Under the pieces are notes generated by a model, which did no database searches, was not told the DNA's origin, and worked only from the letters and a program-made list of their open reading frames with translations. A program made the translations under genes and the position numbers. This document shows positions 14,813 through 35,428 of a stretch of DNA of 39,107 bases, one piece after another (positions within the stretch are counted from its first letter, which is position 1; every line of letters begins with the position of its first letter). The DNA is from a virus, in the IMG/VR virus record IMGVR_UViG_3300042507_006522, positions 1 through 39,107 of that record. One strand, given 5' to 3'.

Positions 14813-16747
14813 ATGGCTATATTTGATAATCTTAAAAAATTATTTTCATCCGATGTTATTATTCGTAACGTAGGAGGAAATGAATTAAAAGTAATGGATA
14901 CTAATAATATCCAAACAGCAGGTGTTTTACAAACAAATTCTGTTGTAGATAGATTTAGTAGAATTTACACAACATCTGGTGTAGCAGCTTATGCCGGCCA
15001 GATGGCAATTAACTATCCATCATTAAGACCTCAACTTTACAGTGACTATGAAGCAATGGACACAGATGCTATTGTTTCTAGTGCGTTAGATATTATAGCT
15101 GATGAGTGTACTTTAAGAAACGAATCAGGAGAAATGCTTCATATTCGTTCTAGTGACGAAAATATTCAGAAAATACTTTATAACTTGTTTTATGATGTGT
15201 TAAATATTGAGTTTAACTTATGGTCATGGACAAGAAATATGTGTAAATATGGTGATTTTTTCTTGAAATTAGAAATTGCAGAAAAATTTGGTGTTTACAG
15301 TGTGATACCTTTCTCAGCATTTAATATACTAAGAGAAGAAGGAATGGATCCTAAAAATCCTTCATATGTAAGATTTAAATATGACCCAGCAGCTGCAGCA
15401 GGTTATGGAACAACAGCAGGTGGTTGGGCTTCTTACGGTGGAGGTCAAAAAGACGAAACAGCTTTTTACTTTGAAAATTATGAAATGGCTCACTTTAGAT
15501 TATTAAGTGATTTAAATTATCTTCCTTATGGTAGAAGTTATTTAGAGCCTGCTCGTAAATTATTTAAACAATATATCTTGATGGAAGATGCGATGATGAT
15601 TCATCGTATTACCAGAGCCCCTGACAGACGTTTATTTTATATTAATATTGGTTCAATTCCACCTAATGAAGTAGAAAACTACATGCAGAAGATGGTACAG
15701 AAACTCAAAAAGACTCCATTTATGGATGAAAAAACAGGTCAATATAACTTAAAATACAACGTTATGAATATGTTGGAAGATTATTATATTCCTGTAAGAG
15801 GCAATGATCAATCAACTAAAATTGACAGTGTTAAAGGCTTAGAATGGACTGGAATTGAGGATGTAGATTATCTTCGTAGTAAATTATTTGCTGCCCTTAA
15901 AGTTCCTAAAGCATTTATGGGTTATGAAAAAGACTTAACTGGTAAAGCAACATTAGCAGCAGAAGATATTCGATTTGCTCGTACAATTGAGCGAATTCAG
16001 AGAATTCTTATTAGTGAATTAACTAAAATAGCATTAGTTCATTTGTATACTCAAGGATATGATGGAGAAGCAATGACTAATTTTGAACTTAGTTTAACTA
16101 CTCCTTCTATTATTTATGATCAAGAAAGAATCTTATTATTAAAAGAAAAAGTAGATCTAGCTAAGCAAATTATGGAAAGTAATTTAATGCCTAGTGATTG
16201 GGTTTATGATAATGTATTCCATTTCAGTGAAGATGAAATTGATGAATACAGAGACTTAGTAATGGAAGATAAAAAACGTGCTTTCAGAATACAACAAATA
16301 ACAGAAGAAGGCAATGATCCAGCTGAAACAGGACAAGCTTATGGAACTCCTCATCAATTAGCTACATTATATGGTTCGGGTAGATACACAAATACACCTA
16401 ATGCTCCACAAGATGTTCCTGCAGGATACGATGAAAAACAAAAAGACATAGTAAGATTACCTGGTAGACCTGAAGAAAAAGTATCTGTAAAAGACACTCA
16501 AGAAAGTCCATTTGGTAAAGACAGATTAGGCAGAAAAGAATACAATTCATCAACTGAAGGAGAAGAAAAATATGGTAAAACTAACCATAAAGGAGGAAGT
16601 CCTCTAGCTTTAGAAAGTAAAGCACAATTCTATAAAAATAAATCAATGTTTGATTTAATGCCTAAACCTGAAGTCAGAAAAATTAATCTTTTTGAAAACA
16701 AGGAAGACAGTAACTTGTTAAGTGAAGATAATATCATTGATTTATAA
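14813..16747 (+). CDS. Portal protein (gp20-like)
   Basis: A 644-aa protein that should form the dodecameric DNA channel at one capsid vertex. It carries T4-type portal features: ALDIIADECT near residue 90, the stem/clip region with FLKLEI, RAPDRRLFYINIG near 265-278, and KVPKAFMGYEKDL near 362-374. The C-terminal ~120 residues are polar and low-complexity and include ESPFGKDRLG. T4 gp20 is about 520 residues, so this tail is extra. It lies between terminase and the head-assembly genes, matching the T4 gene neighbourhood. Confidence 0.9.
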   Translation: MAIFDNLKKLFSSDVIIRNVGGNELKVMDTNNIQTAGVLQTNSVVDRFSRIYTTSGVAAYAGQMAINYPSLRPQLYSDYEAMDTDAIVSSALDIIADECTLRNESGEMLHIRSSDENIQKILYNLFYDVLNIEFNLWSWTRNMCKYGDFFLKLEIAEKFGVYSVIPFSAFNILREEGMDPKNPSYVRFKYDPAAAAGYGTTAGGWASYGGGQKDETAFYFENYEMAHFRLLSDLNYLPYGRSYLEPARKLFKQYILMEDAMMIHRITRAPDRRLFYINIGSIPPNEVENYMQKMVQKLKKTPFMDEKTGQYNLKYNVMNMLEDYYIPVRGNDQSTKIDSVKGLEWTGIEDVDYLRSKLFAALKVPKAFMGYEKDLTGKATLAAEDIRFARTIERIQRILISELTKIALVHLYTQGYDGEAMTNFELSLTTPSIIYDQERILLLKEKVDLAKQIMESNLMPSDWVYDNVFHFSEDEIDEYRDLVMEDKKRAFRIQQITEEGNDPAETGQAYGTPHQLATLYGSGRYTNTPNAPQDVPAGYDEKQKDIVRLPGRPEEKVSVKDTQESPFGKDRLGRKEYNSSTEGEEKYGKTNHKGGSPLALESKAQFYKNKSMFDLMPKPEVRKINLFENKEDSNLLSEDNIIDL

Positions 16748-16776: not shown

Positions 16777-17628
16777 ATGAATCAAATTAAACATTCGAAG
16801 TACAAGAATACTGGAATTATTTTCGAACTTTTAGTTAGACAAGTAACTAATGATGTTTTGGCAACCGGGGATTCACCCGCAGTAAAAATCTTGAAAAAAT
16901 ATTTTTCTAACAGTGAATTGGCTAAAGAACAAAGACTTTACAATTTAGTTAATACACAAGAAAAACTTACAGAAAGCAAAGCAGAAGCTATCTTACAAAC
17001 AATAGCTGAAACAGCATTAAAGTTTGACTTGCCTAAGTTACAAAAAGAAAAATATAACTTAATCAAAGAAATTAAAAAACACTACGATTTAGAAAATTTC
17101 TTTAAAAATAAAATAAATAATTATAAGACATCTGCAGCCGTTTATACGTTGCTAGAATCTTATAGATCTGCTGAATACACAGATCCTAAACAAGTAGTAA
17201 ATAATAAAATTACTCTTTTAGAGCACTTAACTCAAAAAGAAATTATCAACAGTGAAAACGAAGACATTAAGTTGTTTTTACAAGAATCAAAAGACATCCG
17301 TATTTTAACTTACAGAATGTTAATTGAAAAATTCAATGATAGGTATTCTACATTTAGTCCTCAACAAAAAGTTATATTGAAAGAATACATTAACAACATC
17401 AATGATGCTGTTAAATTAAAAAAAGTAGTAAATGATCATTTTAACTACTTAAAACTTACTTTAAATAGTTTCGCAGAAAACATTCAAGAACCAGTAACTA
17501 AAATTAAAATTACTGAAAGTATTAAATTAATTAAACCTATTCAGAAAAACGAAAGTCCTAAAGAAGAACATTTAATTAACTTACTACAGTATTATGAATT
17601 GTTAAGTGAAATTAAAAAAGTAATTTAA
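16777..17628 (+). CDS. Head-cluster protein of unknown function, helical
   Basis: A 283-aa, Lys/Glu/Leu/Asn-rich protein with almost continuous predicted helix. It begins with KYKNTGIIFELLVRQV, a motif I associate with uncharacterised proteins next to the portal gene in marine T4-like phages. No membrane segment or catalytic motif is seen. It has its own late promoter and overlaps the next gene by 1 nt. A role in prohead assembly is inferred from position only. Confidence 0.7.
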   Translation: MNQIKHSKYKNTGIIFELLVRQVTNDVLATGDSPAVKILKKYFSNSELAKEQRLYNLVNTQEKLTESKAEAILQTIAETALKFDLPKLQKEKYNLIKEIKKHYDLENFFKNKINNYKTSAAVYTLLESYRSAEYTDPKQVVNNKITLLEHLTQKEIINSENEDIKLFLQESKDIRILTYRMLIEKFNDRYSTFSPQQKVILKEYINNINDAVKLKKVVNDHFNYLKLTLNSFAENIQEPVTKIKITESIKLIKPIQKNESPKEEHLINLLQYYELLSEIKKVI

Positions 17629-18416
17629 TGAATAAAAATAAGCTTCAAGAACGCATTAAAAAATTTGTAGGCAATAAAATCAAAGAAATGTCTACAGGTG
17701 GAGGAGCTACTAGTGGTTTTACTACTGGTACTGGTTACCAACATCAAGGTAAAAAACCTAAAAGTGAAGCTAAAACTCCTAAAAGATTTCAAAACCCACC
17801 TAAAAGTGGAAAAGGTGTTCCAACAGTATTTACAAAAGGAACAGCTGACTTGTCAGCATATAAAAATATAGGATACAGAGAAGTAAAACCTAGTGAAATG
17901 ATTGATGCTAAGTATTTATGGGCTGGTCCTGGTGGATTAAAAGAAGCTAAAAACCCTACTGACACAATTAAAACAGACGTGCCCTTATTTGTGCGTTTGT
18001 TAGAATATGCTCGTGAAGATGCTAAAACAGATATGGATCTTCACAATGTAACTGAAAATGCTCTTAAGTTGAGCACAACAGGAAACACACTTACTATGAA
18101 AGACTATGATAAAATAGTAAGTAAACAAAAATTAAACGAATCACGTTATAGTCAGTTTAAAAAACAAACTGAAATAGTTAAACCATCTTCCCAGATGCAC
18201 GTTGCGATTAAAGAATTAAAAAAACGTTTAAACGAATTAAACAAAATCGCTGGTTACACTAAACAACTCAGAAATGAGTTAAGTGAAAGTAATGATGTTG
18301 CGTACAACAAACGCACAGAAGCCTACTTAGAACAGCTGATGAAAGAAACAGCAACGTTGTATCACAATTTAAAACAAATAAAGGAAAATGGCAAAGGCAA
18401 AAATCTCCGCAGTTAA
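17628..18416 (+). CDS. Head-cluster protein sharing the capsid's post-cleavage motif
   Basis: A 262-aa basic protein. Near its N-terminus it has IKE at residues 18-20, matching the T4 prohead-protease consensus [L/I]-x-E, followed at residues 26-38 by GATSGFTTGTGYQ. The major capsid protein has IVE at 57-59 and GATSGFTTGNGYQ at 65-77, at exactly the same distance. The rest is Lys/Pro-rich, then helical with a coiled-coil-like C-terminal third (about 180-255). Its position before the protease and scaffold genes corresponds to that of the T4 core proteins gp67 and gp68, but no direct similarity to those is claimed. Confidence 0.75.
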   Translation: MNKNKLQERIKKFVGNKIKEMSTGGGATSGFTTGTGYQHQGKKPKSEAKTPKRFQNPPKSGKGVPTVFTKGTADLSAYKNIGYREVKPSEMIDAKYLWAGPGGLKEAKNPTDTIKTDVPLFVRLLEYAREDAKTDMDLHNVTENALKLSTTGNTLTMKDYDKIVSKQKLNESRYSQFKKQTEIVKPSSQMHVAIKELKKRLNELNKIAGYTKQLRNELSESNDVAYNKRTEAYLEQLMKETATLYHNLKQIKENGKGKNLRS

Positions 18417-18528
18417 GCTTTTTAAAGCTAAACCAAAACGTAAGCGCCCAGGCGTTCATGCAAAAACAAAAGCAAGTAAATTAAAAGGTTCAAAAAATTA
18501 CTTAAAAAAATATGTAGGTCAAGGGTAA
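18388..18528 (+). CDS. 46-aa highly basic protein
   Basis: A short gene in another frame overlapping the end of the preceding gene by 29 nt, with an AAAGGAAA stretch just before its ATG. The product is strongly Lys/Arg-rich with KRKRPGVHAKTKASKLK in the middle and ends KKYVGQG. Small proteins with an R-P-G-x-H-x-K core and a Y-x-G-Q-G end are familiar in large tailed phages, in or near head genes. It may bind DNA or sit inside the capsid; this is inference from charge and location. Confidence 0.7.
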   Translation: MAKAKISAVKLFKAKPKRKRPGVHAKTKASKLKGSKNYLKKYVGQG

Positions 18529-18532
18529 TACA

Positions 18533-18540
18533 TATTTATT
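18533..18540 (+). promoter_or_regulatory. T4-like late promoter box, 3 nt from the ATG
   Basis: TATTTATT ending 3 nt before the ATG at 18544; the expected +1 falls at or within 1 nt of the start codon. Confidence 0.6.
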
Positions 18541-18543
18541 ATC

Positions 18544-19473
18544 ATGAATAACCCAAATCAATCTTACTTTGATAAGTATTTTGATCCCGTTGTCAGGGAC
18601 ATTGATAGAGTTAACATTTACGAATTTGAAAACGGAATGGACTATGAATTAACTCAATCTGGAAAAGAAATCAATCTTGATTCTATCAAAGAAGCACAAG
18701 CAAAAGTTTTGAAAAACCTAAAAAAAGATCCTGCTTATTACACTAATATGTTAGCTGCTGAGTCAGTTAAAATGTTTGGTGAATACGGTTCAGGTAAAGG
18801 CAAAGTAGCTAAAAGTACTACAGCTAAAGAAGCTGAAGCTATAAAAAAAGACGGCAAGTCTCCTAAAATAAACAAACAAGACAGTCCTTTTGGTGTTAAA
18901 GACGAATTAAAAGGTAAATATAAGTCTTCTGGAATGGAACCAACTAAAAAATCTTTAAACGAAGCTTATAGTAGCATAGATGATCTTCCCACACCCGCTA
19001 TGTTGATTAATATGGAAAAAGACAGACTTAAAGCTGCCATAAATCAAATGGATGAAAAAGATAAAAATGCTTTTAAAATGAAATTTAAAAATACGTCTTC
19101 TAAAATCAAAGATGAACTTAATAAAAAATTAAAAGATCTCAAGATTGATTTTAATTTGGGTGAAACTATGGATTATAAAATTAGTAATCAATCTACTTCA
19201 ACTGAACCAGGAAATTACTCTCAGGGTACTATGAAATATTTTGATGAAAATGTTAATGTAGGTGACTCAAGAAAAATCAGATTAACTCCTACTACTAAAA
19301 ATCAAATTTTGACTTTAGTACATGAAACAGTAAAATCTTTAAAAGAAGCTGGTTTAAATGACCAGGATGCAGTAACAGCAGCTACTACAGGAGATGTTGT
19401 AAATATTAGTAAAGCTGATACAACTGCTATACAAAAGGCTAAAAATTTAAAATTACCTTTTTCAACATATTAA
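18544..19473 (+). CDS. Head-cluster protein of unknown function
   Basis: A 309-aa Lys-rich, polar protein. It has a low-complexity Gly/Lys stretch at about 80-130 containing QDSPFG, then two helical regions (about 150-200 and 255-300) with a beta-rich link between them. SPFG or APFG motifs also occur in the portal tail and in the scaffold. The gene lies immediately before the prohead protease (2-nt gap) and has its own late box, so a prohead core or internal protein is plausible. No homologue was recognised. Confidence 0.65.
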   Translation: MNNPNQSYFDKYFDPVVRDIDRVNIYEFENGMDYELTQSGKEINLDSIKEAQAKVLKNLKKDPAYYTNMLAAESVKMFGEYGSGKGKVAKSTTAKEAEAIKKDGKSPKINKQDSPFGVKDELKGKYKSSGMEPTKKSLNEAYSSIDDLPTPAMLINMEKDRLKAAINQMDEKDKNAFKMKFKNTSSKIKDELNKKLKDLKIDFNLGETMDYKISNQSTSTEPGNYSQGTMKYFDENVNVGDSRKIRLTPTTKNQILTLVHETVKSLKEAGLNDQDAVTAATTGDVVNISKADTTAIQKAKNLKLPFSTY

Positions 19474-19475
19474 TA

Positions 19476-20105
19476 ATGTCAAAACAAGTTTTAATAGAGT
19501 ATTTGCCCTTTAGGCCATTACCTCAGTCCCTACATGAGGCAAAGCTGAATCCTGGTAAAAACCTTATTGTAGAAGGTATAGTTCAAAGAGCAGATGCTAA
19601 AAATGAAAATGGTCGCGTTTATCCTAAAACAATTCTCCACAGAGAAGTAGAAAAATACATTGCAGGTCCAATAGCACAGAATAGAGCTTTGGGTGAATTA
19701 GATCACCCAGAGTCTTCTGTAATTAGTTTAAAAAATGTTTGTCACAACATTAAACAATTGTGGTGGGAAGGCGACGATTTATTTGGTCGAATTGAAGTGT
19801 TAAATACACCTTCAGGAAACATATTAAGAGACTTACTATTAAACAACATTACTGTTGGAATTAGTTCAAGAGGAATGGGATCAGTAAAACAATTAGGTGA
19901 AAATACAGTAGAAGTACAAGACGATTTCGACTTAGTTTGTTGGGATTTCGTTAGTACTCCGTCAACACATGGTGCTTACATGAAGCCCGTTAGTTTAGCT
20001 GAAAGTAAACAATATAATACCACAAATCCTGGCAAATACGATAGAATTCATTCACTAGTGACTGATATTATTTGCACTCAAACAGGCGTTTGTTGCATAA
20101 AGTAA
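19476..20105 (+). CDS. Prohead protease (gp21-like)
   Basis: A 209-aa serine protease that matures the prohead by cutting scaffold and capsid proteins. Family features are GRVYP near residue 46, GELDHP with the catalytic His77, and VGISSRGMGS with the catalytic Ser at 130 or 131; WDFVSTPSTHGAYM follows near 156-169. T4 gp21 is similar in size and cuts after [L/I]-x-E. It sits directly before the scaffold and capsid genes as in T4. The C-terminal Cys-rich end (CTQTGVCC) is unusual and has no obvious role. Confidence 0.9.
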   Translation: MSKQVLIEYLPFRPLPQSLHEAKLNPGKNLIVEGIVQRADAKNENGRVYPKTILHREVEKYIAGPIAQNRALGELDHPESSVISLKNVCHNIKQLWWEGDDLFGRIEVLNTPSGNILRDLLLNNITVGISSRGMGSVKQLGENTVEVQDDFDLVCWDFVSTPSTHGAYMKPVSLAESKQYNTTNPGKYDRIHSLVTDIICTQTGVCCIK

Positions 20106-20133
20106 AGAGCTTTTCATAGCTCTGCATGTTTTT
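20106..20133 (+). terminator. Possible weak terminator after the protease gene
   Basis: A 6-bp stem AGAGCT/AGCTCT with loop TTTCAT lies just after the stop codon. A T5 run follows only after five other bases, so termination would be weak. Confidence 0.35.
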
Positions 20134-20146
20134 GGAGAGCCCTATA

Positions 20147-20154
20147 TATTTATG
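20147..20154 (+). promoter_or_regulatory. Late promoter box for the scaffold-capsid genes
   Basis: TATTTATG, about 100 nt before the scaffold ATG. This is the only late box here with a long leader, and it precedes the genes expected to be expressed most. Confidence 0.5.
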
Positions 20155-20163
20155 GGCATCCAT

Positions 20164-20227
20164 ACAGAATCTCTAATATTCTGTCGCACAATAAAAAAAT
20201 CCCTATATTGTCTCTTTAATAGACAGT
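20164..20227 (+). other. Two tandem hairpins in the scaffold-capsid leader
   Basis: Hairpin 1 is ACAGAAT-CTCTAAT-ATTCTGT (20164-20184, 7-bp stem). Hairpin 2 is TGTCT-CTTTAAT-AGACA (20209-20225), extendable by a U-G and an A-U pair. The 7-nt loops differ at one base, and each hairpin is followed by CGCAC/TGCGAAAC and an A-rich run. They probably stabilise or regulate the late mRNA. Confidence 0.5.
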
Positions 20228-20254
20228 GCGAAACAAAAAATTTTTTAAAACAAA

Positions 20255-21550
20255 ATGTCAAAAAACACAAAATTATTCCAAGACGCCATTGCCGACGCTA
20301 AGGCACTCCGTGAAGTTGCCGTCGCCAATGCAAAAGCTGCTCTCGAGGAATCGTTTATGCCCAAAATCCAAAGTATGTTTGAAAAACGTATTATGGATGC
20401 TGAGGACATAGAGGAAGCCAAAGAGAAAAGCGAGAAAGAAGAGGTAGATGAAATGTACGATGCTGATGAAAACATGGATTTATTAACCATGGAAGAAGAA
20501 GTAGATGAAAACATAGACCTCGAAGAACTTTTCAATTCATTGTCTGAAGATGAAACTATCGACGTATCAGATGATGTTGACTTAGAAGAAACCTATGATC
20601 TCGAAGAAATTCTTCGTGAACTAGAAGAAGAAGACAGCATGACCTATGAAGGTGAAGACGAGTTAGAAGAAGACTTGTATGAAAACTTCATAGACGAAAA
20701 AGCTTCTGGTGAAGAAACCATCGAAGAAGTAACCGTAGACGAACTTCGCGACATGATTCAAGACGCTATTAGACAAGTCATGGGCGGTGAAGAAGGCAGT
20801 GCTGGTGAAGAAGAAATGACTATGGGTGCTGAAGAAGGTGGTGATAGTGGAGATGAATTAGATTTCACTATGGACGCTGAAGAAGAAACAGGTGCTGAAG
20901 AAGAAAAGCCTAAGAAAAAGAAGTCTAAAGAAGAAGAATTAGATGAACTTTATGCTCTCTACGAATTGAAGAAAAAGAAAAAAGAAGAACTCGAAGAAAA
21001 ACGTCTTAAGTACAAAGGTAAAATTGAAAAAGAATTAGACGAAGCTAAAAACGTAAACGCTCCTTTCGGTTTAGGCAAAGGCAAACAAAAGCCTGGTGCT
21101 CCTTATGGCGCTGCCGGAACTAAAAAGAGTGGTAAAAACGGTGCTTACTCTGAAACTCTTAAAATGACTCTTCACGAAAAAGCTGAAGAATTAGAAGAAG
21201 CCCTTAACGTAATCAAAACTCTTCGTAGCCAATTGAATGAAGTTAACTTGTTAAACGCTAAATTGATCTATGTAAATAGGTTGTTTAAAGAAAACACGTT
21301 GACTGAAAGTCAAAAAGTAAATGTAGTAAACAGCTTCGATAAAGCAACCACTTTAAACGAAACTAAAAACATTTACGAAGTGTTGAAAAACACAGTAAAA
21401 ACAACTAAAGCAACTACTAAAACTGCTTTAAGAGAACACAAATCATTTGCATCATCAGTAATTGGAGGAAGTACAGCTAAGCCCGAAATTATCGACGCAA
21501 ACGATCAAATCACAAGAATGCAAAAGTTAGCTGGTATTATTAAAAACTAA
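20255..21550 (+). CDS. Prohead core scaffold protein (gp22-like)
   Basis: A 431-aa protein with an Ala/Lys-rich helical start, a very acidic Asp/Glu stretch at about residues 50-235, a Lys-rich helix, then NAPFGLGKG. The C-terminal domain (LHEKAEELEEAL..., then LNAKLIYVNRLFKEN near 338-352) resembles the conserved end of T4 gp22. It should form the inner core on which the capsid assembles and then be degraded by the protease. It lies between protease and capsid genes as in T4. Codon use is richer in C and G than in neighbouring genes, as in the capsid gene, fitting high expression. A-rich bases precede the ATG. Confidence 0.85.
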   Translation: MSKNTKLFQDAIADAKALREVAVANAKAALEESFMPKIQSMFEKRIMDAEDIEEAKEKSEKEEVDEMYDADENMDLLTMEEEVDENIDLEELFNSLSEDETIDVSDDVDLEETYDLEEILRELEEEDSMTYEGEDELEEDLYENFIDEKASGEETIEEVTVDELRDMIQDAIRQVMGGEEGSAGEEEMTMGAEEGGDSGDELDFTMDAEEETGAEEEKPKKKKSKEEELDELYALYELKKKKKEELEEKRLKYKGKIEKELDEAKNVNAPFGLGKGKQKPGAPYGAAGTKKSGKNGAYSETLKMTLHEKAEELEEALNVIKTLRSQLNEVNLLNAKLIYVNRLFKENTLTESQKVNVVNSFDKATTLNETKNIYEVLKNTVKTTKATTKTALREHKSFASSVIGGSTAKPEIIDANDQITRMQKLAGIIKN

Positions 21551-21569
21551 ACAAACAAACAAATAAAAA

Positions 21570-23291
21570 ATGTCAACTATTAATCAACTTCTCGAATCTG
21601 CTAACCCATGGCAGTCTTTGCAGAGCGACGCTGGTCGTTTAGCAAGTAAATGGGCTAAATCTGGTTTGTTGGAAGGTTTGAGCGGATACGACAAAACTAA
21701 CATGTCGATGTTGCTTGAAAACCAAGCCAAGGAACTTATTGTAGAAACTAACACCACTGCTGGTGCTACCTCCGGTTTTACAACTGGTAACGGTTATCAG
21801 TGGGCTGGTATTGCTTTACCGATGGTTCGTAAGATCTTCGGTCAGGTTGTAGCTAAAGAATTCGTTTCTGTACAGCCTATGCAAATGCCTACCGGTCTTA
21901 TTTTCTATTTAGACTTCCAATACGGTACTACCAAAGCTCCTTTCACTAGCGGTGATTCACTTTATGGTGATCGTGCTCCTGGATTCGGCAATAGCAACTT
22001 TGACAACTTAGCTCAAGGTGGTTATTATGGTGCTGGTCGTTTCGGTTATTCTCGTAACGAATTTTCAGCTTCTCTTTCTGGTAGCCAATTTACAGCTACT
22101 GCTGTACCTATGAGCCAATTTTACAAAATTAACTTTGATTCTCGCTACTCAGCTTCTGTAGTTGCTGGTCAAATTTGGGAAGTAGCTGTACCTAACGTTG
22201 CTGTAAATGCTAAAGCTTTAGCTACTGATATTGCTAGTGGTTATACTACTGCTTCTGTAGATACTTTTGGTGTACAAGCTTTCTACTTAACTTCTACTAC
22301 TGCTTCTCTTGTTTCTAATGACGTATTAGCTGATTACACTACTATTACTAACACTACTACTACTTTCTATGTAACTGCTTCTGGTACTGAAGCTGCTGCT
22401 TTAACTGGTTCAGCTAGTATTGCTAATTTGTTCTTCTTGAAACAAGGTTCAATGAATCCTTTCAACGTAGGTGATTATGAAGAAGGTAACGGTTTAGCTA
22501 GTCCTAACATTTTATCTCCTAACAGCATTGAATTCCCTGAACTCAACATTAAGTTGGTTTCTGACTCAATTACAGCTGAAACTCGTAAATTGAAAGCTCA
22601 GTGGACACCTGAATTCGCTCAAGACTTAAACGCATACCAAAACTTGGATGCTGAAGCTGAATTGACTTCTATGTTGAGCGAACAAATTTCAATGGAAATT
22701 GACCTCGAAATCTTAGGCATGTTGATCACTGGTGCTAACGCCGACAACACTGAGTTCTGGAGCGCTAAAGTAGGTAACCAGTTCCAACCTGGTACTCAAA
22801 CTTTCGTTTCTAATACTGCTGGTGTTTACTACAACCAAATGTCTTGGTTCCAAACTTTGGGTATCAAGTTACAGAAAGTTTCTAACTTTATCCACCAGAA
22901 AACTTTACGCGGTGGTGCTAACTTCATGGTAATCAGCCCTTCAGTTGCTACTATCCTCGAATCTATTCCTGGATTTGCTGCTGACAACACTGATGCTGAA
23001 ACAATGAAGTATGCCTTCGGTGTTCAGAAAATTGGTGCTATCAACGGTCGTTACAAAGTATATAAAAACCCTTACATGAAGTGGAACACTATCTTGTTGG
23101 GTTACAAAGGTACTCAGTTCCTCGAAACTGGTGCTGTATACGCTCCTTACGTTCCTTTGATCATGACTCCTCTTATCTACGATCCTAATACCTTCACTCC
23201 TCGTAAAGGTGTTATGACTCGTTACGCTAAGAAAATGCTTCGTCCTGACTACTACGGTAAGATCGAAGTTGCTGACTTAGACGTAGTTTAA
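21570..23291 (+). CDS. Major capsid protein (gp23-like)
   Basis: A 573-aa protein forming the head shell. After a helical N-terminal propeptide it has IVE at residues 57-59, matching the [L/I]-x-E prohead-protease site. AGATSGFTTG, then LPMVRKIFG and VSVQPMQMPTG near 84-115, align with the mature start of T4 gp23. The C-terminal block TPLIYDPNTFTPRKGVMTRYAKK is typical of the family. A Thr/Ser/Ala-rich stretch at about 205-295 looks like a surface insertion. The start is preceded by an A/C-only stretch (aacaaacaaataaaa) with no Shine-Dalgarno. It ends at a strong terminator. Confidence 0.95.
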   Translation: MSTINQLLESANPWQSLQSDAGRLASKWAKSGLLEGLSGYDKTNMSMLLENQAKELIVETNTTAGATSGFTTGNGYQWAGIALPMVRKIFGQVVAKEFVSVQPMQMPTGLIFYLDFQYGTTKAPFTSGDSLYGDRAPGFGNSNFDNLAQGGYYGAGRFGYSRNEFSASLSGSQFTATAVPMSQFYKINFDSRYSASVVAGQIWEVAVPNVAVNAKALATDIASGYTTASVDTFGVQAFYLTSTTASLVSNDVLADYTTITNTTTTFYVTASGTEAAALTGSASIANLFFLKQGSMNPFNVGDYEEGNGLASPNILSPNSIEFPELNIKLVSDSITAETRKLKAQWTPEFAQDLNAYQNLDAEAELTSMLSEQISMEIDLEILGMLITGANADNTEFWSAKVGNQFQPGTQTFVSNTAGVYYNQMSWFQTLGIKLQKVSNFIHQKTLRGGANFMVISPSVATILESIPGFAADNTDAETMKYAFGVQKIGAINGRYKVYKNPYMKWNTILLGYKGTQFLETGAVYAPYVPLIMTPLIYDPNTFTPRKGVMTRYAKKMLRPDYYGKIEVADLDVV

Positions 23292-27213: not shown

Positions 27214-28914
27214 ATGTATCAAGCAATTAGTTATAATTATTACACAAAAACCGCAGTTATTAGAGATGATGAACAAGGATGGATAAGTGTTCCATATACT
27301 CCTACTTATTTCAAACTAGATAAAGAAGGTGAATTTTTTACTTTGGAAGGCAAACGAGTAAGTCCTGTAAAAGAATTTGACAAAAATCGTCCTGACTTGT
27401 TTTTTGAAATAGATGTTCCTATAGCTACAAATGCTTTAGTAGACATTTATAAAAACAATGATGAACCACCTAAATTTCATAATACAATATTTTTAGACAT
27501 TGAGTGTGAAATTGGAGGAGCTCTAACACCAGAATACATAAAAAGAGCACCTATGAAAATTACATCAGTTGCTCTTTATGATTATACTCTTAAAAAATAT
27601 TACTGTCTAATTTTAGATGAAACTAACAAACTCAATAAAGTAGAAGAAGAAAACAAAGAAATTATTCCATACTCTACAGAAAAAGATCTACTAAGAGGAT
27701 TTTTAAGTAAATGGGAAGAATGTGACCCTACTATAATTTCAGGTTGGAACAGTGAATTTTTCGATATTCCTTATTTGTATTATAGAATTTGTAAAGTATT
27801 AGGAGATGAATGGGCAAATAAATTATCTCCTTTAAATAAAGTAAAAATACTTGATTATCAAGGTGAAAGTTCAATAAAAATTGAAGGTGTAAATCACCTT
27901 GACTATATGTTGCTTCACAAGAAATTTATTACAAAACAAGAGCCAAGTTACAAATTAAGTGACATAGGAAAAAAATACGTTAAACTAGACAAAATAGAAT
28001 ACAACGGTTCTTTAGACGATTTATTTAAAAAAGACATTCATACTTTTATTGAATACAACTTGCGAGACGTAGAAATTTTAGTTGCACTAGATAACAAACT
28101 TCAATTTATTGACCTAACAGTAAATATATGTCATCTTTGTCACACAACGTACGAGAATATTTACTATAGTACTGCTCTCAATGAAGGTGCCATATTAACC
28201 TATTTGCGGCGCAAAGACATCGTGTCTCCCAACAAACCTACTACTATGAATCCTGCATTAAAAGCAGGAAATGAAGAATATGCTGGTGGTTATTTAAAAG
28301 ATCCTGTACCTGGTTTATATGAATGGGTAAGTGACTTAGACTTTACTTCACTGTATCCATCAATTATTAGAAACCTAAACATGGGAATTGAAACTTTGGT
28401 TTGTAAAATTGAAAGTCAAGACAAGTACTTTAATCATTATGGTTTAGAAGACTTAAAACAATTAAGTCCTACAAAAACTATTTTAGTTGAAAGAGTAGGT
28501 CAAGACAGAAAAGTTCAACAAATAGAAATGCAAGTAGGAGACTTTATAGAATTTGTTGAAAGTAAAAAATTGATTATTAGTGCTAATGGCACTGTATTTA
28601 GAACAGACAGAAAAAGTGTTATATCAGAAATTTTAGATGATTGGTTTGCTAAAAGAAAAGAATACAAAAATAAAATGAAGGAAGCGTTTAAAGTTTTAAA
28701 CGATCCTGAATTAGGAGAATTCTATAACAAACGACAACATGCATTTAAAATTAAACTAAATGATGTTTATGGTTGTTTTGCTAAAAATGCTTGGAGATAC
28801 AGCGATGGTAATTTGTTTATTAGTAAAGCTATTACTTTGACTGGTCAAAGATTAATTACTGAGTCAATGAAATTTGTTAATGAAGAAATAAATAAAGAAT
28901 TAGGTATTATTTAA
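27214..28914 (+). CDS. Family B DNA polymerase, N-terminal part (gp43A-like)
   Basis: The 566-aa first part of a split replicative polymerase. It contains the proofreading exonuclease motifs: FLDIE at about residues 93-97, SGWNSEFFD near 176-184, and YNLRD near 282-286. It also has polymerase motif A DLDFTSLYPSI at about 374-384 and motif B KLNDVYG near 514-520. It ends ...NKELGII followed by a stop, just before the position where motif C should come. Motif C is encoded separately at 29594, after a GIY-YIG endonuclease gene. The two products must assemble for activity. Split gene 43 is known in some T4-related phages. Confidence 0.93.
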   Translation: MYQAISYNYYTKTAVIRDDEQGWISVPYTPTYFKLDKEGEFFTLEGKRVSPVKEFDKNRPDLFFEIDVPIATNALVDIYKNNDEPPKFHNTIFLDIECEIGGALTPEYIKRAPMKITSVALYDYTLKKYYCLILDETNKLNKVEEENKEIIPYSTEKDLLRGFLSKWEECDPTIISGWNSEFFDIPYLYYRICKVLGDEWANKLSPLNKVKILDYQGESSIKIEGVNHLDYMLLHKKFITKQEPSYKLSDIGKKYVKLDKIEYNGSLDDLFKKDIHTFIEYNLRDVEILVALDNKLQFIDLTVNICHLCHTTYENIYYSTALNEGAILTYLRRKDIVSPNKPTTMNPALKAGNEEYAGGYLKDPVPGLYEWVSDLDFTSLYPSIIRNLNMGIETLVCKIESQDKYFNHYGLEDLKQLSPTKTILVERVGQDRKVQQIEMQVGDFIEFVESKKLIISANGTVFRTDRKSVISEILDDWFAKRKEYKNKMKEAFKVLNDPELGEFYNKRQHAFKIKLNDVYGCFAKNAWRYSDGNLFISKAITLTGQRLITESMKFVNEEINKELGII

Positions 28915-28938
28915 TGTTGTCTTGCTAATGTAATTGCA

Positions 28939-28946
28939 TATTTATA
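28939..28946 (+). promoter_or_regulatory. T4-like late promoter box for the GIY-YIG gene
   Basis: TATTTATA, 10 nt before the ATG at 28957, within the inserted element and not in the polymerase sequence. Confidence 0.6.
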
Positions 28947-28956
28947 ACAAAATACT

Positions 28957-29592
28957 ATGATTGAAATATACATTTTATATAAAAATAATGTTCCTTTCTA
29001 TATTGGATATAGTAAAAACACAAATAAAAGAATAATATCACATAGGAGAAAATATGGTTATGATATTGATTTTGATATTATTGATACTTGTTTAAATACT
29101 AATAAAAAATATATTGAAACTTTTTGGATATGTTTATTTAAAAGTTGGGGATTTAAGTTAGAAAATAAAAATGAAGGAGGTGGCGGTCCTTTATTTCAAA
29201 CTGAAAAAACAAAACAAATTAAAAGAGAAAAAGCTATGGGAAATCAATATGCTAAAGGTAAAAAACAAAACCCACTAGCTGGTTCTAGAAAAAGTAAAGC
29301 TTTAAAAGGCAAACCTAAACCAGAAGGATTTGGAGATATGATGAGACAAGTTAGATTAGGTAAATCAAAACCTAAATATATGGGCGAAAAGGTGAGTAAA
29401 GCTTTAAAAGGCAAACCTAAAGAAAAATTATATAAATCTATATTGCAATTTGATTTAAATAATAATTTAATAAAAGAATGGCCTAGTATAAAACATGCTG
29501 CTCAAGGAACAAATAGTAATGCTTCTACTATATCAAAAGTATGTAGAGGTATTTTTAAAAAAACTAATGGGTATATTTACAAATATAAATAA
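28957..29592 (+). CDS. GIY-YIG homing endonuclease inserted in the polymerase gene
   Basis: A 211-aa free-standing endonuclease with the GIY-YIG pattern YILYKNNVPFYIGYS near the N-terminus, a basic ISHRRK, the catalytic-type Glu in YIETFW, and the same LENKN-GGGGP segment as its paralogue at 9413. Repeated SKALKGKPK motifs (NUMOD3-like) and a C-terminal FDLNNNLIKEWPS domain (NUMOD1-like) follow. It occupies nearly the whole 679-nt insertion between the polymerase halves, leaving no room for an intron core. It ends 1 nt before the second polymerase part and has its own late promoter. Confidence 0.88.
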   Translation: MIEIYILYKNNVPFYIGYSKNTNKRIISHRRKYGYDIDFDIIDTCLNTNKKYIETFWICLFKSWGFKLENKNEGGGGPLFQTEKTKQIKREKAMGNQYAKGKKQNPLAGSRKSKALKGKPKPEGFGDMMRQVRLGKSKPKYMGEKVSKALKGKPKEKLYKSILQFDLNNNLIKEWPSIKHAAQGTNSNASTISKVCRGIFKKTNGYIYKYK

Positions 29593-29593
29593 T

Positions 29594-30472
29594 ATGAAAG
29601 ATTTTATAGTAACAGGGGACACAGACAGCTTGTTTTTTGAAATGAAAGCATTGATTAAAAAACGCAAACCTGATGTTGACATTAAATCTAGAGAACAAGT
29701 AATTCCAGTTGCTTTAGAAATTACTAAAGAATATCAAGATAAAACAAAACCCTTTTTACAAAATTTGTGTAAAACCCAATTTAATTGTGACAACGTGTAT
29801 TTTGAATTAAAGCAAGAAGTTGTACTTGAAAGGGGATATTTTGCAGGTAAAAGAAGATATGCTCAGTTTATTGTAAATAAAGAAGGTGTGCCTGTAGAAG
29901 AATTAGATATCAAAGGCATGGACATTATGAAATCTAACATGACACCAATGTATGCTAAATTTGGTGAAGAATTGTTGATGAATATAATGTATGGTAAGTC
30001 TAAAAAAGAAATTGATAAAAAAATACAAGATTTTAGAAAACACTTAAAAACACTTAGTTATAAAGACGTTGCTAAGCCAACTGGAGTAAAACAAATAAAA
30101 AACTATATTGCTAGTCCACCTCCATCAGGACAAATATTTAGTAAACTAGGAAACAAATGTCCCATCAATACAAAAAGTGCTATTTGGTACAATGACTTAC
30201 TTAGATTTAAAAAATTAGACAAAGAATATTCATGTATTACTGAAGGAGACAAAATTAAGTTTATTCCACTTAAGAAAAACCCATACAGTATAGAGGTTTT
30301 AGCATTTACAAATGAAAGTCCTCAATTTATTTATGATTTTCTAGACAAATATGCAGATACAGACAGTGGTTTCAACAATGTTTTACTAAATAAATTGCAA
30401 GGTATTTATGAAGACTTAAAATGGGACTTTCCTTCTTTAAATCCAAATGTTGAGCGTTTCTTTACGTTTTAA
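29594..30472 (+). CDS. Family B DNA polymerase, C-terminal part (gp43B-like)
   Basis: A 292-aa protein that opens with polymerase motif C, VTGDTDSLFFE at residues 6-16 (two catalytic Asp), followed by the KQEVVLERGYFAGKRRYA block, where palm meets thumb. The thumb contains LKTLSYKDVAKPTG. It ends NVERFFTF, similar to the clamp-binding C-terminus of T4-type polymerases. The ATG at 29594 is the only sensible start because the sequence before it belongs to the endonuclease. Together with the first part (566 + 292 = 858 aa) it approaches the length of T4 gp43 (898 aa). No residues seem lost at the break. Confidence 0.92.
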   Translation: MKDFIVTGDTDSLFFEMKALIKKRKPDVDIKSREQVIPVALEITKEYQDKTKPFLQNLCKTQFNCDNVYFELKQEVVLERGYFAGKRRYAQFIVNKEGVPVEELDIKGMDIMKSNMTPMYAKFGEELLMNIMYGKSKKEIDKKIQDFRKHLKTLSYKDVAKPTGVKQIKNYIASPPPSGQIFSKLGNKCPINTKSAIWYNDLLRFKKLDKEYSCITEGDKIKFIPLKKNPYSIEVLAFTNESPQFIYDFLDKYADTDSGFNNVLLNKLQGIYEDLKWDFPSLNPNVERFFTF

Positions 30473-33820: not shown

Positions 33821-35428
33821 ATGAGTACAAAAACATTATTTGGAGACGATTTAAAGAAAAAATTGTTAGATGGCATTTTAAAGTTAAATGCTAGTGTTAG
33901 TTCAACTTTAGGACCAGGTGGTAGAAATGTATTGATTCAAAAAGAAGATGGAACTATTGCAGCTACTAAAGACGGAGTTTCAGTTGCAAAATCGTTTCAT
34001 AAACTAGATGACGACATTGAAAACATTGGAGCCCAACTTGTAAAACAAGTAAGTGTAAAATCAGCAAACGAAGCTGGAGACGGTACTACAACTAGTACTT
34101 TGTTAGCAACTACAATGATTGAAGAAGGCATTAAATTGATTGACAAAGGAGTAAACGTAGTAGAAGTTAAAAAACAAATGGAACAAGCTGTTTCAGAAGT
34201 AATTGCTGAATTGAAATCAATGGCTAAACCTGTTACTTCAAATGAACAAATCAAGTATGTAGCTACTATCTCAGGCAACAACGATGAAGAAATTGGCAAC
34301 TTGATTAGTGAAGCTATCAGTGAAGTAGGTTATGATGGTATCGTAACTATTGAATCAAGTAAAACAGGCGAAACTGTTCTTGACATTGTAGAAGGAATGC
34401 AGTTTGATAGGGGCTACAAGTCGCCTTACTTTGTTACTGACAACAATTCAATGAAAGCTGTTTTAGAAAATCCTTTGATTTTACTTTATGATGGAGTAGT
34501 GGGAACAGCTGCTGATTTGGTTCCTGTTTTACAAAAAGCAAGTGGTGAAAATCAACCAGTAGTAATTATTGCTGAAGAATTCAGTGAAGAAGCATTAGCA
34601 GTTATGTTGGTAAACAAAGCAAGGGGCACAATTAAAGTATGTGCTATTAAAGCTCCTGACTATGGTGATCGCAGAACATTGCTTTTAGAAGACATGGCTA
34701 CATTAACTGGTGGAACTGTTATTAGTCCTAAAAAGGGTCACAAACTAGAAAAAATTGTAGGTGAAACCTTAAATAAAGCTTTAGGAAATGCTCGAATGAT
34801 AACAGTAACTAAAGACACTACTACCATTGTAGATGGCAAGGGTAGCGCAGAAGAGTTGGCTCTTCGTGCGGAAGAATTGAAAACACAAATAGATGCCGCT
34901 ACATCAATGTTTGAGCGCGAGAAATTGCAAGAACGTTTAGGTCGCTTGTCTGGTGGAGTTGCTATTGTAAGTGTAGGAGGCAACAGTGATCTAGAAATCA
35001 AAGAAAAAAGAGACCGAGTTGAAGATGCTCTTTATGCTACTAAAGCAGCTATTGCAGAAGGAGTAATTCCAGGTAGTGGTTGGCCTCTATACAACATTGC
35101 TTTAGGCATGTCTAGTAAGACTTTGGGTGAAACTATTGTTAAGTCAGCTATTAGTTCTCCTTTCAATAGGATTTTAACTAATGCTGGTCTTGAACTAGTT
35201 CAAGAAACTTTAAACAAATTAATTGTATCTACAGAACTTGCATTTGACGTTAAACAACAAAAAGTAGTCAATGCTTACGAGTCTGGTTTACTAGATCCTG
35301 TTAAAGTTACTAGGATAGCGTTAGAAAATGCTTTGTCAGTAGCAAGTACAATTCTAACATCAGAATCAGTAGTCTTTGAAGAAAGAAAAGACGAAAGTCC
35401 AGATCCAGGAATGGGAATGGGATTCTAA
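33821..35428 (+). CDS. groEL: GroEL-like chaperonin
   Basis: A full-length 535-aa chaperonin. Nucleotide-site motifs are TLGPGGRNV (29-37), Asp51 in TKDG, GDGTTT (86-91), and Asp402 in EDALYATKAA, the position of the catalytic Asp398 of E. coli. The apical domain is complete, and the C-terminus is a short GMGMGF tail. One departure is that the usual AGGGVAL nucleotide-binding loop reads PGSGWPL (417-423). T4-like phages usually bring only a GroES substitute; here both partners are encoded. A strong terminator ends the operon. Confidence 0.93.
   Translation: MSTKTLFGDDLKKKLLDGILKLNASVSSTLGPGGRNVLIQKEDGTIAATKDGVSVAKSFHKLDDDIENIGAQLVKQVSVKSANEAGDGTTTSTLLATTMIEEGIKLIDKGVNVVEVKKQMEQAVSEVIAELKSMAKPVTSNEQIKYVATISGNNDEEIGNLISEAISEVGYDGIVTIESSKTGETVLDIVEGMQFDRGYKSPYFVTDNNSMKAVLENPLILLYDGVVGTAADLVPVLQKASGENQPVVIIAEEFSEEALAVMLVNKARGTIKVCAIKAPDYGDRRTLLLEDMATLTGGTVISPKKGHKLEKIVGETLNKALGNARMITVTKDTTTIVDGKGSAEELALRAEELKTQIDAATSMFEREKLQERLGRLSGGVAIVSVGGNSDLEIKEKRDRVEDALYATKAAIAEGVIPGSGWPLYNIALGMSSKTLGETIVKSAISSPFNRILTNAGLELVQETLNKLIVSTELAFDVKQQKVVNAYESGLLDPVKVTRIALENALSVASTILTSESVVFEERKDESPDPGMGMGF

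Follow-up and report, generated by a model that had tools for sequence, protein, structure and literature searches.

Lineage-matched likeness between the capsid N-terminal arm and a second head protein in T4-like viruses

Introduction

The closest described counterpart of the locus considered here is the head of phage T4, in which the capsid protein gp23 is cut by the prohead protease and the segment directly after the cut, the N-fist, spans residues 66-91 (PMC7136217). We analysed a 39-kb virus record (IMG/VR record IMGVR_UViG_3300042507_006522, 39,107 nucleotides in all, hereafter the window) that carries a T4-like head module on the plus strand, and in which a 262-residue protein (g262) shares a short arm with the gp23-family major capsid protein (MCP). 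The N-fist of T4 is disordered in the prohead, goes to the outer surface upon expansion, and touches a pair of subunits in its own capsomer and a pair in the neighbouring one (PMC9958956); around the portal, five N-fists without a capsomer partner are disordered (PMC7136217).

The motif of the T4 protease is a short L/I-x-E ahead of the cut. The T4 prohead core proteins gp67 and gp68 and the internal proteins IPI-IPIII, with their capsid-targeting propeptides, also have a short N-terminal propeptide ending in (I/L)-x-E and are helical and basic, and T4 core proteins are cut into fragments. We know of no T4 core protein that bears the capsid arm. According to a review of the T4 head, the mechanisms placing proteins in the core remain mysterious and the core structure is unresolved (PMC9958956). 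The available part of the report on phage P1 describes DarA/Hdf as a protease-cut internal protein on the inner surface of the capsid, whose site of cleavage lies close in space to the one in the capsid protein; unlike g262 as read here, it binds via a hexon-binding domain and helices, and this part of the report makes no mention of a capsid-arm copy (PMC12810830). In a further case, two different proteins, SaPI1 CpmB and the 80alpha scaffold, use one short motif (the RIIK hook) at the same capsid site (PMC5644958), but in that system the mimicry concerns the scaffold rather than the capsid protein, through a motif at the C-terminus. We found no description of a capsid-arm mimic of the present kind in the open-access literature, which leaves its absence unproven.

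The shared arm

The two proteins and the parts of them that bear on the likeness are as follows.

21570..23291, plus strand: MCP, gp23 family, 573 aa (Pfam Gp23 9.2e-77, PHROG 138 2.6e-70, PDB gp23 matches)
21570..21746, plus strand: predicted MCP propeptide, residues 1-59, ending in IVE (57-59), at the place equivalent to the T4 gp23 cut after residue 65
21747..21809, plus strand: capsid N-fist region, residues 60-80, TNTTAGATSGFTTGNGYQWAG, with the shared core at 21765-21800 (matched by phmmer to T4 gp23* from mature residue 12 on, and by hhalign to the same region)
17628..18416, plus strand: g262, the second head protein, 262 aa, between the portal and protease genes, with an ortholog at the same place in related loci
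17628..17687, plus strand: predicted g262 propeptide, residues 1-20, a basic helix (7 K/R, 2 D/E; helix 3-22 in the AlphaFold2 (AF2) model) ending in IKE (18-20), with cleavage predicted
17688..17750, plus strand: N-fist-like arm of g262, residues 21-41, MSTGGGATSGFTTGTGYQHQG, with the shared core at 17706-17741 (disordered in the AF2 model)

In the MCP, IVE is followed by TNTTAG (60-65) and then by ATSGFTTGNGYQ at residues 66-77; in g262, IKE is followed by six residues as well, MSTGGG, and then by ATSGFTTGTGYQ at residues 27-38. The initial annotation of the window had proposed that the two proteins share one post-cleavage sequence at identical spacing, and its coordinates, residue numbers, spacing and codons are exact. 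The cores are identical at 11 of 12 residues and at 27 of 36 nucleotides, with Ser encoded by TCC in the MCP and by AGT in g262. When g262 was shuffled (12 shuffles), its best 12-residue match to the MCP was 6/12. Across all open reading frames (ORFs) of the window, the MCP arm scores 72 against g262 and at most 34 against any other, and shuffled arms reach at most 44. A search of the window with g262 returned the MCP arm as the sole second match (E = 1e-4), and a profile of 26 second proteins matched a profile of 15 MCPs with an hhalign probability of 92% (E = 5.6e-7), the match being confined to the cleavage site and the arm and beginning before the cut. In most relatives examined, the top match of the capsid arm is the g262 ortholog of the same genome, and by arm alignment the capsid arm is absent from every other ORF of the examined loci, including the scaffold-like protein and g309 (a 309-aa protein). 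It is conceivable that two flexible Gly/Ser/Thr-rich linkers came to look alike by chance, and the arm is of low complexity and disordered in the model; however, shuffled arms stay far below the observed score in the window and likewise in most relatives, the arm covaries between clades and a prediction made from it came true (see below), and the profile match is strong, so that we regard chance as very improbable.

The 573-aa protein passes the Gp23 Pfam model with 259.4 bits against a cut-off of 24.4, matches T4 gp23 with an hhalign probability of 99.6%, and has a gp23-like arm. Both phmmer and hhalign put this arm on the T4 gp23 residues just past the cut, where TNIAAGQTSGAVTQIGP aligns with TNTTAGATSGFTTGNGYQ. 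These alignments suggest that the capsid arm here is the counterpart of the T4 N-fist, an inter-capsomer contact element. Whereas the arm is found in no other ORF of the T4 head gene cluster examined, here a second, unrelated protein has it.

It had also been noted that both I-x-E sites fit the T4 prohead-protease rule. This holds in so far as most relatives have (I/L/V/M)-x-E immediately ahead of the arm (at the cut site, P3 is L/I in 64/106 second proteins and V/M in 8/106), but I/L-x-E triplets are frequent, with 9 in g262 and 24 in the scaffold-like protein, and given how common they are, the rule carries little weight by itself. The Glu immediately preceding the conserved arm is the stronger argument; Glu20 is conserved in at least 90% of g262 orthologs. 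One might suppose that the residues after the cut are a signal common to both substrates and read by the prohead protease or the core, as would be allowed by their constant distance to the cut site in the window and by the start of the hhalign match ahead of the cut. The other presumed substrates, the scaffold-like protein and g309, nevertheless lack the motif, at least five relatives (L071, L077, L117, L193 and L207) have a second protein that retains the Glu site but not the motif, and the T4 protease motif lies before the cut; such a signal is therefore unlikely. A motif common to all protease substrates can be rejected, since no other ORF in the loci has it, and the protease or docking signal suggested in the initial annotation gains no support as a general one.

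Relatives and covariation

Related loci (labelled L with a number) with the gene order of the window were taken from IMG/VR scans. The g262 orthologs are very variable in length and in their N-terminal segment, mostly have the C-terminal helical domain in common, and show a Glu followed by a Gly/Ser/Thr-rich arm. In clade A, to which the window belongs, the capsid arm reads TNTTAGATSGFTTGxGYQWAG and that of the second protein MSTGxGATSGFxTGxGYQHQG; in clade B the commonest forms are SSTGGxVTNGATFTPGNGEQWAG and STTGGGVTNGATFTPGNGEQYA; and in L025 they are SGFQVGNGYQWAG and ASFSVGNGYQHNG, respectively. It is evident that in lineages with a differing capsid arm (TGGxVTNGATFTPGNGEQ; TGTGASFTPGTGEQY) the second protein bears that other arm. 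The second-protein arms are closer to the MCP arm of their own clade than to the arms of their orthologs: that of clade A scores 58 against its own MCP, an underestimate as the pattern used shortened some arms, and 37, 31 and 29 against the second proteins of clades B, D and C, and that of clade B scores 86 against its own MCP and 28-59 against other second proteins. Clades C and D are not counted as separate switches because both have one arm form. Among 47 distinct genomes, the mean score of own pairs is 59.1 against 42.6 after re-pairing, and the best of 20,000 permutations reached 50.3, although the resulting P is not a clean probability because the genomes are related.

The covariation also allowed a prediction. 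From the second protein of a marine clade alone (MSTTGTGASFTPGxGxQYATPKAF), the expected capsid arm was written down and was then found in three genomes, as ANTTGTGASFTPGTGEQYAA (L127), ANTTGTGASFTAGTGEQYAA (L223) and, with a looser match, ASTTGTGGTWTDGTGGQYAA (L211); the L127 capsid fragment was already present but unread beforehand, and L211 and L223 were obtained afterwards. The prediction was wrong at the end of the arm, where QWAG was expected and QYAA found. With an arm that aligns to the N-fist of T4 gp23 and tracks the capsid arm between lineages, the earlier idea that g262 uses the capsid arm to occupy the same lattice contact gains support from these comparisons.

The same covariation would be expected if a third component, such as a decoration or cement protein or a scaffold, bound both mature arms and g262 never entered the N-fist site. 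In T4, N-fists and I-domain linkers indeed make up the Soc binding site (PMC9958956). On the other hand, we found no candidate for such a partner, and the shell itself is the simplest partner because the T4 arm is a capsid-capsid contact. We consider a shared third partner rather improbable, though it is the strongest of the alternatives.

Age of the likeness

Across 21 genomes, the codon is the same at 149 of the 346 arm residues that are identical, against 150.6 expected from codon usage. Codon identity at expectation rules out recent gene copying or gene conversion, in agreement with the proposal that the likeness is conserved at the protein level and is not a recent copy. In clade A, 4 columns of the arm vary in amino acid and 9 only synonymously, against 13 and 2 in the next 20 codons, which speaks for selection on the arm, with the reservation that the clade A arms were chosen by pattern and the counts are biased toward conservation. 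These figures bear on the possibility that a segment of the capsid arm was copied into g262 in the ancestor of each lineage and has little function of its own. The arm of the second protein does differ as a block between lineages, and a direct copy would account for the near-exact likeness; but with synonymous codons alike only at chance level any copies must be old, and the mostly synonymous-only columns of the pattern-picked clade A arms argue for selection. Recombination of this kind has, in our view, a low probability, much like that of the protease or core signal.

Anatomy of g262

Behind the arm, the following parts of g262 can be distinguished.

17748..17852, plus strand: basic Pro-rich linker, residues 41-75 (9 K/R, 2 D/E), mostly disordered in AF2
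18132..18140, plus strand: possible second protease site, LNE (169-171) before SRYSQF, with cleavage predicted
18141..18413, plus strand: helical hairpin at the C-terminus, residues 172-262, where conservation within the family is highest (AF2 helices 171-181, 186-221 and 228-255)

The AF2 model shows an N-terminal helix, a disordered arm and a helical C-terminus, with the hairpin at a block predicted local distance difference test score (pLDDT) of 68-86 over residues 181-250. This modelled layout, with its basic helix, cut site, disordered arm, basic linker and helical C-terminus, resembles the type of a core or internal head protein. Because Glu171 is invariant in 26/26 orthologs and P3 there is mostly L or I (67/78 sequences), the C-terminal domain may also be cut off, by analogy with the fragmentation of T4 core proteins. 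We found no Pfam family above cut-off, no PDB match and no convincing PHROG match for g262, and no convincing relative among solved or predicted structures (best Foldseek E 0.7).

The middle segment VPLFVRLLEYAREDAKTDMDLHNVTEN (residues 114-164, window 17967-18119) shares 69% identity with a portion of a protein in a 735-kb uncultured phage (L090) and also matches L018; it is missing in clade B and in immuto-like orthologs. To judge from this distribution it is a mobile module, to which no role is assigned. The orthologs of L011, L012, L013, L014, L015 and L016 contain, following GGLKE, an insert some 88 residues long, which ends in GEPFGLKE or GEPFGLRE and adjoins the point where g262 of the window has an LKE triplet.

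Gene neighbourhood

The remaining genes of the head module, and PhoH, are given below.

Start 13148, plus strand: terminase
14813..16747, plus strand: portal protein (Portal_T4 3.9e-71, Pfam)
16777..17628, plus strand: g283, conserved, function not assigned, the synteny anchor between portal and g262
18544..19473, plus strand: g309, 309 aa, between g262 and the protease, with no capsid-arm copy
19476..20105, plus strand: prohead protease, T4 gp21 family (Peptidase_S77 2.5e-34, PHROG 207 3.8e-55), presumed to cut both proteins
20255..21550, plus strand: acidic scaffold-like protein in the interval between protease and MCP, assigned by position, with no capsid-arm copy
Start 23367, plus strand: PhoH

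The protein at the scaffold position has zero Pfam or PHROG matches. In the window and related loci the g262 gene lies between portal and prohead protease, as do gp67 and gp68 in T4, but sequence homology to these is lacking; g262 was rejected as a homolog of gp67 or gp68 with an hhalign probability of 0.1% for both.

A second short motif is common to the portal C-terminus (residue 565, SPFGKDRLGRKEYNSS), g309 (residue 114, SPFGVKDELKGKYKSS) and the scaffold-like protein (residues 269 and 282: APFGLGK, APYGAAG), and L006 and L012 likewise have it in each of the three; the core may use it as a docking motif. Elsewhere in the window, the DNA polymerase is apparently split (27214-30472), with ORFs 27214-28914 and 29495-30472 flanking a homing-endonuclease-like ORF (28957-29592), which suggests an intron or similar insertion. 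A phage-encoded GroEL-like chaperonin at 33821-35428 (PHROG 5725, 1.3e-139) possibly serves the folding of the gp23-type capsid protein.

Discussion

We give roughly even odds (a probability of about 0.5) to the reading that g262 belongs to the prohead core, like the proteins encoded between portal and protease in T4, and after cleavage docks on the shell with an N-terminus that mimics the N-fist. Its N-terminal helix would be a propeptide, and the gp21-type protease would cut g262 after Glu20 and the capsid protein after Glu59, so that both mature proteins would start with a near-identical flexible arm. The freed arm of g262 would then fit the capsid N-fist site, and its docking would anchor the basic linker and the helical C-terminus to the shell, with g262 presumably retained in the virion. 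The likeliest docking places would be sites without a capsid neighbour, for example the ring around the portal. A fuller scenario can be put forward only tentatively and seems to us less probable than its alternatives taken together: the core protein would thread its counterfeit N-fist into a lattice site at maturation, probably at the symmetry-mismatched portal vertex or at penton rims without a capsid neighbour, and so tie core, DNA or portal to the shell, with mimic and capsid arms co-evolving.

Several points weigh against the main reading. About a third of second proteins (34/106) have a residue other than I/L/V/M at P3 of the cut site, and clade D has L/I at P4 instead. Mean pLDDT is low in the monomer AF2 models, 57 for g262 and 46 for the MCP, too weak for a contact test, and the MCP model was not used to place the arm in three dimensions. 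At least five relatives, those named above in which the second protein retains the Glu but not the motif, combine a capsid arm of the F/W..G.G.Q pattern with a different arm in the second protein, and the mimic is found in 0/11 genomes with another capsid-arm type; docking is therefore not an obligatory role of the family. On the tree, the capsid-arm type switches 3-4 times, too few for a significant independent-pairs test against mimicry.

The mimic requires seven changes on the capsid-body tree, one of them owing to an incomplete locus. L223, flagged among the exceptions, does have the mimic, with Ser for Phe; L069 and L152 are one contig, which ends within the gene of the second protein, and are not exceptions, though they were scored as lacking the mimic in the permutation and tree analyses. 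Absence of the motif from one of the two proteins in relatives had been named as evidence against the shared arm, and because such relatives exist the likeness, which itself holds, has to be called lineage-specific. Judged from the sequences, the arm is commonly in the mimic state but can do without it, and this state was gained or lost several times. We found no cultured phage with the mimic; the nearest isolates, Flavobacterium immuto phages and Microcystis phage Mel-JY01, carry a gene close to this position, but one that lacks it. The second protein of immuto-like phages often has a length of only about 73 aa, with the sequence E|MSTTGAVGGYLTKNAFSKKG; such small second proteins have an additional repeat of a module resembling TPxAF ... 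LGYKxV (L176:1055-1429, L181:864-1232, L186, L187, L197).

Two questions of current interest are how core proteins attach to the shell of a T4-like prohead and how the head accommodates the mismatch at its portal vertex. Because the arm likeness shifts in step with the shell protein between lineages, these results suggest that the second head protein plugs into the contacts by which shell subunits hold each other. A lineage-matched copy of the N-fist in a second protein is a concrete candidate for a tether, and it names the capsid site that would be bound. If this is true, it would be a clear case of molecular mimicry within one virus, maintained by co-evolution and not by recent gene copying.

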